Shown here in pieces: positions 37,626 to 62,236 of a DNA stretch of 64,000 nt; the first letter of the stretch is position 1; each line of letters opens with the position of its first letter. The stretch covers positions 62,001 to 126,000 of the forward strand of contig NZ_VJYZ01000023.1 in the NCBI RefSeq assembly GCF_007018965.1, written 5' to 3'. The notes under the pieces were generated by a model, which did no database searches, had not been told where the DNA came from, and saw nothing but the letters and a program-made list of their open reading frames with translations. The position numbers and the translations under genes are program-made. This stretch comes from Paracoccus marinus (GTDB lineage: Bacteria > Pseudomonadota > Alphaproteobacteria > Rhodobacterales > Rhodobacteraceae).

Positions 37626-38516
37626 TCAGCGAAGCTCGGCGGGCGAAAGCCTGCGGCGCCGCTCGAACGTGGCGATCAGGACGCCGCCCACCACCAGCAC
37701 GCCCGCCGCAAGCTCGACCAGCGCTGGTGCCTCGCCGAACGCGACCCAGGACGACAGCACCCCCACGACCGGCACCAGCATCGACCACGGCGCAACCGCG
37801 CTGGCCGAATAGCGCGCGATCAGCGTGTTCCAGATGCCGTAACCAAGGATCGAGGCGCAGACGACGATGTAAAGCAGGCCCAGGTTCGCGGGCAGCGCCT
37901 CGCGGGTAAGGGCGGTCGAAAGCGCGGGCGCGATCCGCGGCCCCTCGAACCACAGGGACATCAGGAACGTCGGGATCGGCGGCACCAGCGACATCCACAT
38001 CGTCAGCTGCAGCGGCTTCGGCGCCCGCGCCAGCCGCGAGCAGATGTTGCCCGTGGCCCACCCCAGCGCCGCCAGCAGCGTCAGCGCGACCGGCACCCAG
38101 CTTGCCGCCTGCGCCCGGTGGGCGCCGATGAAGGCCAGGCCCAGCACCGCGATCCCCACCCCCGCCGCCCGCCGCGCGGTCAGCCGCTCGCCCAGCAGCA
38201 GCGTCGCCAGCAGCATCGTGAAGGGCGCCTGCGCCTGCAGCACCAGCGAGGCGAGGCCGGGCGGCATCCCCGCCTCCATCGCGACGTACAGAAAGCCGAA
38301 TTGCAGCACGCCAAGGCCGAAGCCGGTGCCGATCAGCCAGATCGTGCGGACCTGCGGGCGCGGCACCAGCAGGATCGTGGGAATCGCCAGCAGCGTGAAC
38401 CTGAGCGCGGCGGCAAGAAACGGTGGATAGTGCTGCAAAGCATAGGCCGTCGCCGGAAAGTTCAGCCCCCACAGCACCGGAACGGCCAGGGCCAGCAGGC
38501 GGTCGCGTGGTTGCAT
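37626..38516 (-). CDS. EamA-family (DMT) transporter
   Basis: 296 residues from ATG 38516 with ten predicted helices in two repeats: WGLNFPATAYALQHYPPFLAAALRF opens the first and LGWATGNICSRLA the second. This is the 10-TMS drug/metabolite exporter branch related to YdeD/RhtA, which exports amino acids or similar metabolites. Substrate unknown. Its 80-base leader is short and holds a tandem 20-bp repeat. Confidence 0.9.
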   Translation of the reverse strand: MQPRDRLLALAVPVLWGLNFPATAYALQHYPPFLAAALRFTLLAIPTILLVPRPQVRTIWLIGTGFGLGVLQFGFLYVAMEAGMPPGLASLVLQAQAPFTMLLATLLLGERLTARRAAGVGIAVLGLAFIGAHRAQAASWVPVALTLLAALGWATGNICSRLARAPKPLQLTMWMSLVPPIPTFLMSLWFEGPRIAPALSTALTREALPANLGLLYIVVCASILGYGIWNTLIARYSASAVAPWSMLVPVVGVLSSWVAFGEAPALVELAAGVLVVGGVLIATFERRRRLSPAELR

Positions 38517-38524
38517 CGGGCACA

Positions 38525-38564
38525 GTCTTTCGTTGCGGCGCGCGGTCTTTCGTTGCGGCGCGCG
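38525..38564. repeat. Perfect 20-bp tandem duplication in the EamA leader
   Basis: GTCTTTCGTTGCGGCGCGCG occurs twice without a change at 38525-38544 and 38545-38564, nine bases upstream of the EamA start on its strand. On the minus strand each unit ends CGAAAGAC. It might be a paired operator or a recent slip duplication. Confidence 0.8.
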
Positions 38565-38596
38565 CACCCTGCACGGGCCGCCCGGCGCCCGCAAGG

Positions 38597-39712
38597 TCAG
38601 CCGAAAAGCGGCAGCTGGTCGTCCGCGGCGGGCGGTTCGGGCGGGCACAGGGCGGACAGGGTGATCCCCAGCAGCCGCACCCCCTGCGGCACCTGATGCG
38701 GACGCGGGTCGGGCAGCACCTGCGGCAGCATCGCGGTGGCGAGCGCGAGCAGTTCGTCGCGTGACGCGACGGGGCGGGGCAGCGACCGGGCGCGGGTGAC
38801 GATCCGGAAGTCGGCGTATTTCGCCTTGAGCGTGACGGTGCGGCCGCTGATCCCGTTCGGCTCGGCATGCCGCCAGACCTTGTTGGCAAGGGGGGCAAGC
38901 GCCTCGGCGGCGGCGGTCAGGTCGTGGATGTCGGTGAAGAAGGTGTTCTCGGCCCCGACCGACTTGCGCTCGCGGTCGGGGCGCACCTCGCGGTGGTCGA
39001 TGCCGCGGGCGATGTTGAAATAATAGCTGCCGGACTTGCCGAAGGTGGCGCTGAGGAACTCGAGGCTCTGGCGGTGTAGGTCGGCGCCGGTGCGGATCCC
39101 GTGCCGTTCCATCCGGGCCGAGGTGGCGGGCCCGATCCCGTGAAAGCGCCCGATCGGCAGGGTCAGGACAAAGGCGGGTCCGGCCTCGGGCGGGATCACG
39201 AACAGGCCGTCGGGCTTGCGCTGGTCGGACGCGAGCTTGGCCAGGAACTTGTTGTAACTGACCCCGGCCGAGGCGGTGAGCCCGGTTTCGGCCCGGATCA
39301 GCGCCCGGATTTCCTGCGCGATGCGGGTCGCGGTGCGGCCGTGCAGGTGGTCGGTCAGGTCCAGGTAAGCCTCGTCCAGCGACAGGGGTTCGATCTGCGG
39401 GGTGAAGCGGGCGAAGATGTCGCGGATCTGGCGGCTGACGGCCTTGTAGACCTCGAACCGGGGCTTGACGAAGACGAGGTCGGGGCAAAGCCGCGCGGCC
39501 CGCACCGACGGCATGGCCGAGCGGACGCCGAAGGGCCGCGCCTCGTAGCTGGCGGCGGCGACGACCCCGCGCAGCGACGACCCCCCGACGGCGACGGGGC
39601 GGCCGCGAAGGGCCGGGTCGTCGCGTTGTTCGACGCTGGCGTAGAAGGCGTCCATGTCGACGTGGACGATGCGGCGGATGCGGGCGGGGTCGGGGGTGGC
39701 GGGGTCGGTCAT
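38597..39712 (-). CDS. dinB: DNA polymerase IV
   Basis: 371 residues from ATG 39712. Y-family polymerase: VHVDMDAFYASVEQRDDP with first metal ligands, PLSLDEAYLDLT with Asp-Glu pair, SAGVSYNKFLAKLASD and HGIGP (helix-hairpin-helix), then little-finger domain. The C-terminus DDQLPLFG ends in a beta-clamp binding QLPLF motif. It copies past damaged bases with low fidelity. A second fork of the family, the imuB/dnaE2 type, is excluded by the clamp motif and length. No LexA box is evident upstream, where the structured repeats lie. Confidence 0.95.
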   Translation of the reverse strand: MTDPATPDPARIRRIVHVDMDAFYASVEQRDDPALRGRPVAVGGSSLRGVVAAASYEARPFGVRSAMPSVRAARLCPDLVFVKPRFEVYKAVSRQIRDIFARFTPQIEPLSLDEAYLDLTDHLHGRTATRIAQEIRALIRAETGLTASAGVSYNKFLAKLASDQRKPDGLFVIPPEAGPAFVLTLPIGRFHGIGPATSARMERHGIRTGADLHRQSLEFLSATFGKSGSYYFNIARGIDHREVRPDRERKSVGAENTFFTDIHDLTAAAEALAPLANKVWRHAEPNGISGRTVTLKAKYADFRIVTRARSLPRPVASRDELLALATAMLPQVLPDPRPHQVPQGVRLLGITLSALCPPEPPAADDQLPLFG

Positions 39713-39743
39713 CGAGCGGGCCGGCGGGCAGGGGCGGTCATGC

Positions 39744-39901
39744 GATGAACCCCCCGGTTTGCGCAAAGCAAACCGGGACGCGCCCGCCCGCCCCTTGGCG
39801 GGCGCGTTCGCACCCACCCGGGCGGCCGCGTCCCTCCGGCGTGCTGGCGTCGGCGCGGCGCACGGAAACGGGCTCGTGGCCCGTTTCCTTTAGCGGCACG
39901 G
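39744..39901. repeat. Structured tandem repeat, copy 1 of 3
   Basis: About 158 bp. Plus-strand hairpins: CCGGTTTGC/GCAAACCGG at 39754-39776 (9 bp), ACGCGCCCGCC/GGCGGGCGCGT at 39778-39807 (11 bp), and GGAAACGGGC/GCCCGTTTCC at 39864-39888 (10 bp) followed by TTTAGC. Copies 2 and 3 keep these stems while changing both bases of several pairs. Confidence 0.9.
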
Positions 39902-39952
39902 TATCGTCGATAAGCCGCGTGACGCCAATATTCGGTCTTGCCCCGGTCCTTC

Positions 39953-40108
39953 GATCCACCCGCCGGTCCGCCCAAAGCGGACCGGGACGCACCCGCCCGC
40001 CCCAGGCGGGTGCGTTCGCACCCACCAGGCGTGCGCGTCCCTCCGAAGTGCTGGCGTCGAGGGGCCGCACGGAAACGGGCTTGTGGCACGTTTCCTTTAG
40101 CGGGACCG
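39953..40108. repeat. Structured tandem repeat, copy 2 of 3
   Basis: About 156 bp, 209 bases after copy 1. First stem CCGGTCCGC/GCGGACCGG, second stem ACGCACCCGCC/GGCGGGTGCGT, third stem GGAAACGggc/gcaCGTTTCC with one mismatch. Relative to copy 1, the first two stems carry paired compensatory changes. Confidence 0.9.
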
Positions 40109-40148
40109 CTTTTGCCGGGTAGGCGCAAACGGCTTGCCCGGGTCATTC

Positions 40149-40306
40149 GACCCACTCCCCGGTTTGCCCAAAGCAGACCGGGACGCGCCCGCCCGCCCTC
40201 AGGCGGGTGCGTTCGCACCCACCCGGGCGTGCGGGTCCCTCCGAAGCGCTGGCTTCGCTGGACCGCACGGAAACGGGTTCGTGACCCGTTTCCTTCAGCA
40301 AGACCG
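40149..40306. repeat. Structured tandem repeat, copy 3 of 3
   Basis: About 158 bp, 196 bases after copy 2. First stem CCGGTTTGC/GCAGACCGG (one wobble), second stem with a G-T wobble where copies 1 and 2 have G-C and A-T, third stem GGAAACGGGT/ACCCGTTTCC, compensatory to copy 1. It ends 50 bases before the ygfZ stop. Confidence 0.9.
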
Positions 40307-40355
40307 CAGCAAACGGGCCGGAGCGCATACGCATCGCCCATCCCGCCGCGCATCC

Positions 40356-41081
40356 TCACCCCGCCGCGCTGATCCGCGCGTCGCCCGCGGTCAGCGGCCC
40401 GTCCATGCGGTCGAAGCGCATGTGGGCGATCGCCCGGCCGCCCGACTGCGTGTAAAGCGTCCCCGCCTCGCGCCCGTCCTCCATCAGGATCGGAGTGCCC
40501 GGAGGCGCCGCGCCGTCCACCGCCACCGCAATCAGGCCCTTCCGCAGCTCGGTCTTGTGCTTCATCCGGGCGGTCACTTCCTGCCCGACATAGCAGCCCT
40601 TGCGGAAATCGACGCCGTGGAGCCGCTCGAACCCGGCTTCCAGAATGAAGGTTTCATTCGGGACCAGCTCGACCAGCGTCTCCGGAATGGTGTGCGCCAC
40701 CCGCACGGCGTCCCAGTCGGTCCCGTCGTCGCCCGCGGCGTCGCCGTAAAGCCGCCAGCCCATGTCGGGATGGCGCGGGTCGGCGACCGCGCCCTCGGGC
40801 GCCGTTCCGACCCCGCGCGACATGTGCAGGCCGGCATCCTCGACCCCCACCTTGGCCCGCAGCCTGTACATCGACAGCCGCCGCATCAGGTCTTCCGCCA
40901 GCCGCGCGTCAACGTCCACCAGCAGCGCGTCCCCCTGCGGCACCACGAAGAAATCCGCGAGGTATTTTCCCTGCGCCGTCAGCAGCGCCGCCCAGACCGG
41001 CGCGCGGCTCACGTCGTTGGTCACCAGCCCCTGCAGGAACTCCACCCGGTCGTCGCCGGTCACGCGCAGGATACTCCGCAT
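40356..41081 (-). CDS. ygfZ: YgfZ/GcvT-domain folate-binding protein
   Basis: 241 residues from ATG 41081 (a GTG one codon upstream is possible). GcvT-like fold with VEFLQGLVTNDVS near the N-terminus and the family signature KGCYVGQEVTARM with its conserved cysteine in the middle. YgfZ proteins use tetrahydrofolate and help iron-sulfur cluster assembly or repair, for example of MiaB. Its ATG overlaps the stop of the ABC exporter gene by one base, so they are translated together. Confidence 0.92.
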   Translation of the reverse strand: MRSILRVTGDDRVEFLQGLVTNDVSRAPVWAALLTAQGKYLADFFVVPQGDALLVDVDARLAEDLMRRLSMYRLRAKVGVEDAGLHMSRGVGTAPEGAVADPRHPDMGWRLYGDAAGDDGTDWDAVRVAHTIPETLVELVPNETFILEAGFERLHGVDFRKGCYVGQEVTARMKHKTELRKGLIAVAVDGAAPPGTPILMEDGREAGTLYTQSGGRAIAHMRFDRMDGPLTAGDARISAAG

Positions 41082-42820
41082 CACTCGCCCCCAAATTGCA
41101 GCCGGACCAGCGCCGCATAGGCGCCGCCCTGTTCCATCAACTGGTCATGCGTGCCCTGTTCGACAACCCGCCCCGCCTCCATCACCACGATCAGGTCGGC
41201 GGCGCGGATCGTGGACAGCCGGTGCGCGATGATGAGCGTGGTGCGCCCCGCCGACAGCTCCTCCAGCGCGGCCTGCACCAGCCGTTCGGATGCGGCGTCC
41301 AGCGCGCTCGTCGCCTCGTCCAGCAGCAGCACGGGCCGGTCGCGCAGGATCGCGCGGGCGATGCCGATCCGCTGGCGTTGCCCGCCCGACAGGGCCGAGC
41401 CGCGGGGACCGGCCGGCGTTTCCAGCCCGCCGGGCAGCGTATCGGTGAAATCCGCCACATGCGCCGCCACGACCGCGCGGCGCAGCGCGGCCGGGTCGGC
41501 GCGGTGGCCGGGGTCGATGTTTTCACGCAGCGTCTCGTCGAACAGCGCGCTGTCCTGCGTCACGACCGAAAACTGGTCGCGCAGCACCGGCAGCGTGAAA
41601 TCGGCGACCGGGAAGCCCCCCAGCGTGACCTGGCCCGCGTCGGGATCGACCATCCGCGACAGCAGGTTGAACACCGTCGATTTCCCCGCCCCCGACGGCC
41701 CGACCAGCGCGGTGGTCCGGCCCGCTTCGGCGGTGAACGTGAGCCCGCGCAGGACCGGCTGCTCGCCATAGGACAGATGCACGTCCTGAAACCGGATCGT
41801 CGTGCCCTCGGGCGGCGCGGTGCGTGGGCCCGAGGCGATGGTGGGCCTTGTGTCGAACACCTCGTAGATGCGTTCGAGCGAGGTCATGGCCGCCTGCCAG
41901 CCCCCCGCAAGCCCGCCCAGCCGCCGCAGCGGCTGGAACGCCAGCGACAGCGCGGTGAAGAACGACATGAAGTCGCCCACGCTGCGCTCGCCCCGCGTGA
42001 CCTGCGCGCCGCCGAGCGCGAGGACGCCTACGAACCCCAGCCCGGTCACGATGTCGATCAGCGCGGGGATCAGCGCCTTCATCGCGCTCATCTTGGTCTC
42101 GCGCTGGCGCAGCCCCTCGACGATCGCGCGGAAGCGGCCGGACTGGTAGCTTTCCATGCCGTTCACGCGGATCGCGGCGATGCCGTGCAGCACCTCGTCC
42201 AGGCGGGTTGCGCGGCGCGACGCCTCGATCCGCGTCTCGCGGGTGCGGCGGCGGATGTAGCGCTGGACGAAGTAGGTCGGCACGATCAGCAGCGGCGCGC
42301 CCACGGCGGCGGCCAGCGTCCACAGCGGGTCGATCGCGATCGCGACCCCGAAGAGGCTGACAAGCGAGATCACGTCCCGCCCCGCGCCGCTGATGAAGGT
42401 GGTCCAGATCCCCTGGATCGCCTGGGTGTCGCCCTGGATCCGCTCGATCAGCGCGCCGGGGGGGTTCTTCTGGTAGAAGCTGCCGTCGAGCGTCAGGATG
42501 TGGCGCAAAAGGTCGGTCTGCATCGACACCGCGACGCCCTGCTGGACCGACGTCAGCAGCGCGCGGGTGATGACGAGGGTCGTCGCGCGGATCAGGAACA
42601 GGCCGAAGATGATCCCGCCGACCCACCAGATCGCGCCGCCGTCGCCGCCCACGAACACCCGGTCGAACAGCGGCCGCAGCATCCACGACAGCACGGCGAG
42701 GGTCGATCCCTCGACGATCATCAGCGCCATCGCCACGCCCATGCGCGGGGCATAGGAGCGCAGGTAGTCGCGCCACAGGCGGCGCGGCAGGCTGCGGTCT
42801 GGGTCGGCGCGTGACGTCAT
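41081..42820 (-). CDS. MsbA-like ABC exporter (fused membrane and ATPase domains)
   Basis: 579 residues from ATG 42820. Residues about 20-320 form the six-helix type IV exporter domain; 340-579 form the ATPase with GPSGAGKST, LSGGQRQRIGIARAIL, VLLLDEATSALD and the H-loop IIAHRLSTI. This half-transporter dimerises in the inner membrane. FYQKNPPGALIERIQGD and the general match are typical of lipid A flippases, but the same family includes peptide and drug exporters. A longer frame that starts upstream runs through the G-rich repeat array and is not real. Confidence 0.88.
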   Translation of the reverse strand: MTSRADPDRSLPRRLWRDYLRSYAPRMGVAMALMIVEGSTLAVLSWMLRPLFDRVFVGGDGGAIWWVGGIIFGLFLIRATTLVITRALLTSVQQGVAVSMQTDLLRHILTLDGSFYQKNPPGALIERIQGDTQAIQGIWTTFISGAGRDVISLVSLFGVAIAIDPLWTLAAAVGAPLLIVPTYFVQRYIRRRTRETRIEASRRATRLDEVLHGIAAIRVNGMESYQSGRFRAIVEGLRQRETKMSAMKALIPALIDIVTGLGFVGVLALGGAQVTRGERSVGDFMSFFTALSLAFQPLRRLGGLAGGWQAAMTSLERIYEVFDTRPTIASGPRTAPPEGTTIRFQDVHLSYGEQPVLRGLTFTAEAGRTTALVGPSGAGKSTVFNLLSRMVDPDAGQVTLGGFPVADFTLPVLRDQFSVVTQDSALFDETLRENIDPGHRADPAALRRAVVAAHVADFTDTLPGGLETPAGPRGSALSGGQRQRIGIARAILRDRPVLLLDEATSALDAASERLVQAALEELSAGRTTLIIAHRLSTIRAADLIVVMEAGRVVEQGTHDQLMEQGGAYAALVRLQFGGE

Positions 42821-61888: not shown

Positions 61889-61917
61889 TTGACATGCAGC
61901 CCCATCCGACCGAGTTT
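61889..61917 (+). promoter_or_regulatory. Promoter of the riboswitch-mesXD transcript
   Basis: TTGACA (61889-61894), 17 bases, GAGTTT (61912-61917). The start would fall close to 61925, at the 5' edge of the cobalamin aptamer, which supports it even though the -10 is weak. Confidence 0.5.
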
Positions 61918-61924
61918 GCCCGCA

Positions 61925-62100
61925 GATCAAGGTGCCGGGGGAAGCCCCGGGTAAAAGGGAATCCGGTCCGGCTCGGGCCAAATCCGGAACTGCCCCCGCA
62001 ACTGTAGGCGGAGAGCCTGTCCGACATGCCACTGGCGCAGCCCTGCGCCGGGAAGGCCGGGCAAGGCGCCAATCCGCAAGTCAGGAAACCTGCCCTGATC
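61925..62100 (+). ncRNA. Cobalamin (adenosylcobalamin) riboswitch
   Basis: All conserved parts are in order: AAAAGGGAATCCGG (61953-61966), CCCCCGCAACTGTAGGCGG (about 61994-62012), the B12-box core GCCACTG (62029-62035), GGGAAGGCC and the closing CAGGAAACCTGCC (62082-62094). A P1-like stem joins GATCA near 61925 with TGATC at 62096-62100. Bound B12 normally switches the following gene off. The 136-base expression platform (62101-62236) is GC-rich with a GGGCCG/CGGCCC hairpin near 62180-62200 and no T-run terminator, so control is probably at translation start. Confidence 0.95.
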
Positions 62101-62236
62101 GTTCACCTGTTCCGGCCGCGGAGGGCGCGTCGGGCGCGGTCCCATCCGCAAGGTGACATCGCCGCCCCAAGGCATCCGCCCCGGGGCCGTTTGTTTACCG
62201 GCCCGCCACGGCAGGCCGCCCGGAAGGCATGTCAGG

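Follow-up and report, generated by a model that had tools for sequence, protein, structure and literature searches.

A probable REP/BIME-like extragenic palindromic repeat at gene 3' ends in Paracoccus marinus and its counterparts in the Rhodobacteraceae

The array of three units between the ygfZ- and dinB-like genes of Paracoccus marinus probably represents a REP/BIME-like extragenic palindromic repeat located at gene 3' ends, for which we infer a function in transcript ends. The array lies in the window, the 64,000-nucleotide stretch of DNA that was analysed. The element belongs to a family of dispersed non-coding repeats that extends through much of a single bacterial family, the Rhodobacteraceae. 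It behaves as REP-type palindromes do, being non-coding, dispersed and present at gene 3' ends in both orientations, with variants specific to individual lineages. The original prediction described three copies at 196-209 bp spacing, and this is borne out by the sequence, a repeat search and alignment; the mean column identity of the three copies is 87% (203 aligned columns, flanks included). The same prediction put the unit at ~157 bp. The copies are real but the unit measures ~170 nt, because an outer imperfect inverted repeat, CGGTCCT...AGGACCG, had been missed; it was revealed by aligning the genome's copies. The features of the array are given below, with copy coordinates from the genome-wide model R1 (window position = contig position minus 62000).

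38597..39712, - strand: dinB-like gene (IMS family DNA polymerase; Pfam IMS 7.3e-53, IMS_C 2e-24; gene caller)
39735..39904, + strand: copy 1, whole unit (R1 match, 167.1 bits, E 3.2e-35)
39736..39742, + strand: copy 1, left arm of the P0 closing stem or terminal inverted repeat (consensus CGGTCCT)
39754..39776, + strand: copy 1, P1 hairpin CCGGTTTGC-GCAAA-GCAAACCGG (sequence, fold, covariation)
39775..39834, + strand: copy 1, P2 module with complementary segments a / a' / a2 / a2'
39864..39888, + strand: copy 1, P4 hairpin GGAAACGGGC-TCGTG-GCCCGTTTCC (sequence, fold, covariation)
39944..40111, + strand: copy 2, whole unit (R1 match, 177.2 bits, E 1.5e-37)
39963..39985, + strand: copy 2, P1 hairpin CCGGTCCGC-CCAAA-GCGGACCGG (sequence, fold)
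40071..40095, + strand: copy 2, P4 hairpin with one G-A mismatch (sequence, fold)
40140..40309, + strand: copy 3, whole unit (R1 match, 177.8 bits, E 1.1e-37)
40159..40181, + strand: copy 3, P1 hairpin CCGGTTTGC-CCAAA-GCAGACCGG with one G-U pair (sequence, fold)
40269..40293, + strand: copy 3, P4 hairpin GGAAACGGGT-TCGTG-ACCCGTTTCC (sequence, fold)
40356..41081, - strand: ygfZ/CAF17-like gene (Pfam Beta-barrel_CAF17_C 5.8e-19; GCV_T 3.7e-5, below its cut-off; gene caller)

Copy 1 begins 23 bp from the start of the dinB-like gene and copy 3 ends ~47 bp from the stop of the ygfZ/CAF17-like gene. The right arm of P0 (consensus AGGACCG) aligns at ~39895-39901 in copy 1, where it pairs poorly. The four segments of P2 can form either a long nested stem (a:a2' with an inner a':a2) or a simple hairpin a:a', and each of these pairings is conserved. 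Elsewhere in the window, an Rfam search places a cobalamin riboswitch at 61913-62111 on the + strand (123.8 bits).

Copies of the element are dispersed through the P. marinus genome and its relatives. When the genome from which the window comes (3.13 Mb, 38 contigs) was searched at the DNA level, 18 near-full-length copies were identified at nine sites, all at E ≤ 9.4e-35 among 51 matches at E ≤ 1, the rest being short. Sites hold one to four head-to-tail copies, and one array has a decayed fifth; a core model recovered the window's three copies and no further ones in 400 kb of other stretches of the genome. The covariance model R1 was built from 19 copies, 18 from the window's genome and one from a congener, and searched across the genus with at most 22 candidates scored per genome. 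It returned 144 matches in at least 23 of 125 genomes, the window's own included. In all searches of more than 40 genomes, 11-22 candidates were scored per genome under strict filters, which makes copy and carrier counts lower bounds. The core model R2 matches at least 84 of 394 family genomes at E ≤ 1e-4, again with the window's own included; the 394 represent one genome per genus, with the exception of Paracoccus, for which there are two. In a class-wide sample of 289 genomes, R2 matched two, both Rhodobacteraceae, and none from other families. An exact core pattern was present in 12 of 12 carriers and in none of six non-carriers (four congeners and two genomes of other families), while a reversed control pattern was absent from all 18. 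Among the matches listed, the core was seen, for example, in Paracoccus halophilus, P. aeridis, P. isoporae, Marivita, Roseovarius, Loktanella, Leisingera, Salinihabitans, Pseudoruegeria and Cognatishimia, and also in a MAG titled Hyphomicrobiales, which is outside the family by name and may reflect a binning error. Of the three options in the original prediction, a palindromic repeat is supported, as a dispersed one, by the 18 copies at nine sites in the window's genome and the many more in relatives.

Subfamilies differ between species and have in common a core consisting of hairpin P1 followed by the P2 module with segments a (GCGYCCGCC), a' (GGCGGRCGC), a2 (GCGYCCACC) and a2' (GGnCGGRCGC). 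This P1-P2 core is common to many genera while the ends change. In the window's subfamily the P4 hairpin follows P2, another subfamily carries additional hairpins on both sides of the core, and in a minimal subfamily of ~105 nt only P0, P1 and P2 are seen. Unit length is accordingly ~170 nt in the window's genome and about 75-230 nt in other subfamilies. Many copies in L111-L140 (G073, G098), L150-L152 (G139) and L160 and L162 (G114) have an extra hairpin on either side, GGCGAAGGCCATCGCCTTCGCC in front and one of the GGGCGGGGGAAAYGC... type behind, giving a unit of ~230 bp; the GGCGAAGGCCATCGCCTTCGCC hairpin is likewise found in front of a copy from another genus (L222).

The fold of the element covaries within and between species. 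All shuffled sequences (200 for each copy) fold worse than copies 1-3, with z values of -3.71, -4.43 and -5.42, respectively. The compensatory changes quoted in the original prediction, TTTGC/GCAAA versus TCCGC/GCGGA, GCGCCC/GGGCGC versus GCACCC/GGGTGC and GGGC/GCCC versus GGGT/ACCC, were all found; in addition, copy 3 has G-U intermediates in stems 1 and 2, and stem 3 of copy 2 contains one G-A mismatch. The predicted stem 2 is one of two competing pairings. Over the 19 copies of R1, 94.4% of cells pair, falling to 34-48% with slid partners, and 10 of 44 pairs show double changes compared with 3.2 ± 1.1 in shuffles (0 of 500 shuffles reach this number). The weakest measure of covariation, the number of further pair types, is 19 versus 17.1 in shuffles, with 44 of 500 shuffles reaching it. 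Helix 1 (P0) has 82% of cells paired and one double-change pair, while the inner helices have 95-100% and nine. We further scored nested P2 in 48 core sequences, all from Paracoccus, across subfamilies; seven of 108 loci yielded no core and array L004 only one. The covariation score is 0.256 compared with 0.097 in shuffles and at most 0.083 with slid partners, and there are nine double-change pairs versus 6.2 ± 0.9 (4 of 500 shuffles reach this).

The same fold recurs in other genera. Among 114 unique pattern matches listed, mostly from other genera and some from Paracoccus, 80% contain, in the upstream 45 nt, a hairpin resembling P1 with 7 or more pairs, against a background of 24% in mononucleotide shuffles and 23% in the 40 nt downstream. 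The 5' arms of P1 are diverse, with 51 distinct among 91 pattern matches listed. In the variable part of the outer P2 stem at least 7 pairs form in 49% of the pattern matches listed with the own partner, and in 12% when partners are swapped between loci of differing 5' arm. Own-partner pairing with many stem sequences in other genera indicates that the fold is kept while the sequence changes. Isolated P2 cores are predicted to be nested in 83 of 97 cases and a simple hairpin in 3 of 97; unlike most of these, P2 of the three full-length window copies folds as a simple hairpin. Wobble asymmetry was considered as a pointer to the working strand and rejected, as the helices contradict each other (G-U versus A-C is 31:1 in a:a' and 14:55 in a:a2'). 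The original prediction took covariation to mean that the fold is kept by selection. This is plausible but unproven, given that the copies are related and not independent and may convert each other. In its favor, elements at shared sites are ~0.80-0.84 identical where non-coding flanks are near shuffled background at most of six sites, and the fold persists through the many different stem sequences of other genera.

The element does not appear to encode a protein, and a function as a small RNA is very unlikely. No reading frame is conserved and copies differ by 1-nt indels, in agreement with the earlier remark that open frames through the copies do not look protein-like. A protein-coding role was rejected on these indels and on gene calls: no called gene overlaps any of the 108 Paracoccus loci by more than 30 bp, and none covers the core in the 119 pattern matches listed. 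A family of small trans-acting RNAs encoded by tandem genes on the + strand, a form of the small-RNA reading that the original prediction had also offered, would account for the stable multi-stem fold with its covariation and for tandem arrays of 2-4 units. Against it, no conserved DNA precedes the unit across dispersed copies, no sigma-70 match is found in 38400-41300 (a weak test in this taxon) and, as detailed below, orientation is unbiased. Rfam likewise contains no family matching at gathering score over the window elements or 11 loci of other subfamilies; the region 39600-40450 gave four sub-threshold matches with a best E of 0.17.

Copies adjoin stop codons and rarely sit in promoter-bearing gaps. 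We compiled a Paracoccus set of 108 loci from 15 genomes, counting tandem copies as one locus and using a home-made codon-model gene caller that yields the expected genes around the window's array. Outside this set are 11 matches of G024, G043, G046, G052, G084, G094, G127 and G132, five matches of G069, G098 and G139, the two-copy locus L123 and L145. Convergent gaps hold 66 of the loci, tandem (co-directional) gaps 39 and divergent gaps 3, compared with 12-17, 63-65 and 27-32 expected from 464 kb of the window's own genome only. The binomial p values, 3e-27 for convergent (by gap count) and 7e-13 for divergent gaps (by length), apply to loci that are not independent, as the three sister species share sites. 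G107, G073 and G098 alone contribute 38 convergent, 12 tandem and 0 divergent of 50. The median distance to the nearest stop codon is 35 bp, and it is at most 60 bp for 87 of 105. A second set, mostly from other genera, consists of 119 pattern matches listed, 24 of which have no gene on one side. The remaining 95, among the matches listed, are 44 convergent, 47 tandem and 4 divergent; background gaps in the second-set loci number 91, 274 and 110, respectively, element-bearing gaps included. At least seven loci of this set are Paracoccus and several come from one MAG, so that its members are not wholly independent of the 108 loci or of one another. With respect to the upstream gene the element shows no orientation bias and occurs either way, with 16 sense and 23 antisense in Paracoccus tandem gaps (p 0.34) and 20 sense and 27 antisense in those of the second set, among the matches listed.

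This location, extragenic and in convergent or co-directional gaps near stop codons, is the one described for REPs. In the bacteria studied in PMC1590033, stem-loops in general also favor gaps between convergent genes over those between divergent genes. Since ordinary stem-loops share the preference, a position in convergent gaps is not specific to a repeat, and it could reflect only the purging of insertions from promoters and genes. Position is also what speaks for the transcript-boundary element that the original prediction had listed among its possibilities. Another reading is a bidirectional transcription terminator copied to many gene ends, consistent with the strong convergent-gap bias beside stop codons in both orientations and with the symmetric, A-rich/T-rich P4 hairpin. 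However, no long U-tract is seen by eye to follow the hairpins, and a terminator scan of 38400-41300 gave 3 matches versus 1.5 ± 1.2 in shuffles, two of the 3 being weak and inside copy 1 on the - strand. By eye, P4 is not seen in several subfamilies, and some copies (L079 and L089) have ordinary terminators, a hairpin plus a T-run, in their flanks. As judged from sequence, intrinsic termination is not supported, and we consider the terminator reading unlikely. At L079 and L089, which come from two species, the elements lie beside such terminators and beside what by eye is apparently the same tRNA gene.

REP/BIME repeats of E. coli are clustered, palindromic, alternating in orientation and RAYT-linked, and they bind gyrase, IHF and Pol I. 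Structured intergenic repeats of the ERIC and bcr1 types, found in other taxa, are ~100-170 bp long, dispersed and have an RNA-like fold; the present element can be likened to them, by description, in these three respects. With E. coli REP/BIME, which are frequently found between convergent genes (PMC1525189), the element shares its convergent-gap location and its clustered, palindromic nature, and differs in sequence and size. REPs lie mostly between convergent or co-directional genes close to 3' ends, and roles in RNA 3' ends and supercoiling have been proposed for them (PMC3733652). GTAG- and CGTC-tagged REPs are palindromes of 20-40 bp, the CGTC type mostly having a CCA tail and A-T first pairs (PMC3733652). 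Like the present element they are extragenic palindromes that follow the same location rule, with some families being species-specific (PMC3733652). In contrast to these 20-40-bp repeats, the element measures 75-230 bp, is multi-stemmed and has no such tag at its ends, which read CGGTCCT...AGGACCG in the window's genome; by eye, the ends differ in other subfamilies. The words 'Paracoccus', 'Rhodobact' and 'Roseo' are absent from the main text of PMC3733652. GTAG-type REPs are further marked by a RAYT in the genome, which 15 of 18 carriers of the element do not have. REPs usually number more than 100 copies per genome (PMC2817692); 18-20 copies of the element are present here and tens at most were seen elsewhere, these counts being lower bounds from candidate lists capped at 11-22 and from a strict pattern. 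Element arrays are head-to-tail (matches above 30 bits, three sister species), whereas BIME units alternate (PMC2817692). A further parallel is Br-REP1 of Bradyrhizobium, a repeat of three palindromes situated where the 3'-UTRs of convergent genes overlap, for which transcription of both strands has been suggested (PMC5082802). Like the present element it combines several palindromes at convergent gene ends of an alphaproteobacterium; it differs in sequence (core CCGGAATCTCGAGATTCCGG), occupies about 200 sites and belongs to another order (PMC5082802). We found no description of the element in open-access papers, preprints excluded. Overall, the element is REP-like in behavior and lies outside the two tagged REP superfamilies by its size, its ends and, usually, the lack of a RAYT. 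By eye, the dinB-ygfZ spacer of G002 (L058) carries another repeat, whose GTAGGGTGCGTG...CACGCACC palindromes resemble GTAG-tagged REPs; two further genomes have it adjoining the present element (flanks of L100 and L274).

Sites keep the element while the identity of individual copies is not retained. The ygfZ-dinB site carries three copies in the window's species, four in its sister species G041, two of which are decayed, and one in G113. Seven congeners (G002, G107, G066, G069, G058, G125 and G015) have ygfZ and dinB side by side, with matches 20-131 bp apart, and no element, in further agreement with a dispersed repeat. Not counted as empty sites were G073, G098, G139, G064 and G114, where the genes are not adjacent, and G024, where they are ~1 kb apart. 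In the simplest reading, the ygfZ-dinB element was gained in the ancestor of a species group. Other element sites are common to the three sister species, among which same-site copies of different genomes are 0.804 identical (34 pairs) and different-site copies 0.806 (185 pairs); for the two closest species the values are 0.835 and 0.836, respectively. Same-site copies are no more alike than different-site copies, and therefore sites keep the element and not the identity of a copy. Copies within a genome are 0.838 identical over the three species and, at different sites of the two closest, 0.842 versus 0.836 between genomes. The best match outside the own array lies in the same genome for 17 of 28 copies (11.2 expected; 25 of 1000 label shuffles reach this), or 17 of 25 without G113 (63 of 1000), while 2 of 28 copies have it at the same site (2.6 expected). 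Strong homogenisation within genomes was rejected, the control showing a weak excess only. The lack of site memory may be explained by conversion, by replacement or by a burst of spread near the species split, which would also erase it. The non-coding flanks of arrays are near shuffled background at most of six sites, as compared between two species.

At one intergenic site of two sister species the element lies in opposite orientation (L003:1500-1669 and L076:1159-1324), which could have arisen by in-place inversion or by insertions that hit the site independently. By eye, G041 has apparent decayed remnants at two other sites. At the site of L087, G113 has the element and G041 an apparent relic, while in the window's genome (G000, L192) ~1 kb of other sequence lies between the same flanking genes.

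The element could instead be a MITE, a functionless non-autonomous insertion-sequence relic whose fold is conserved only through the need of an enzyme or the youth of the copies. Its 7-bp imperfect terminal inverted repeat CGGTCCT/AGGACCG is of the kind by which MITEs are recognized, and the dispersal of copies, the apparent relics at two G041 sites, the opposite orientation of L003 and L076 and the missing site memory would all follow. However, no target-site duplication or autonomous parent is seen; empty sites exist, but their flanks are too diverged for a junction to be read. P0 is moreover less well kept than the inner helices (82% paired and one double change compared with 95-100% and nine), the P1-P2 core is common to many genera while the ends change, and elements persist at shared sites of three species where most flanks are near background (two species, six sites). 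We view a MITE as rather unlikely. Mobilisation by a RAYT was rejected, the RAYT family (Y1_Tnp, PF01797) being absent from 15 of 18 carriers including the window's own genome; one of the 15 is only 71% complete, and one of the three matches is weak. No element match was found in phages; plasmids gave three, all of Leisingera and each covering only part of the query (30-31%).

In the preferred explanation, a REP/BIME-like repeat of gene 3' ends, an imperfect terminal inverted repeat P0 encloses P1, a P2 palindrome with two possible folds and, here, P4. Copies may spread by gene conversion or by non-autonomous transposition with a putative enzyme. Lying in the 3'-UTR of either neighbour, the element would be transcribed from either side, and its hairpins may protect the 3' ends of mRNAs against exonucleases and/or reduce read-through from one convergent gene into the other, separating their transcripts. 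Copies would be kept at 3' ends for these reasons, and we infer 3'-end protection or separation of convergent transcripts as the function. Alternatively, within the same explanation, the element may act as DNA, for example as a topoisomerase or nucleoid-protein site, as convergent transcription would build supercoils at such gene ends. A bolder version, which we hold to be quite improbable, has the element act family-wide at gene ends as a device with two states, in RNA or single-strand DNA. In it a would pair with a' or a2', both of these pairings being conserved, and a copying mechanism other than RAYT would turn copies over between sites, which keep the element and not the copy.

The REP/BIME-like repeat described here would add a structured repeat family to the Rhodobacteraceae, for which searches of the open-access literature gave no earlier description of extragenic repeats. 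Its unit exceeds that of tagged REPs in both size and complexity. It also serves as an annotation aid: GC-rich intergenic hairpins of this shape can be recognized and should not be called genes or small RNAs. Its near-restriction to one family, its preference for convergent gaps and the usual lack of a RAYT make two questions testable in tractable laboratory bacteria, namely why REP-like repeats persist at gene ends and by what route those lacking a RAYT spread.
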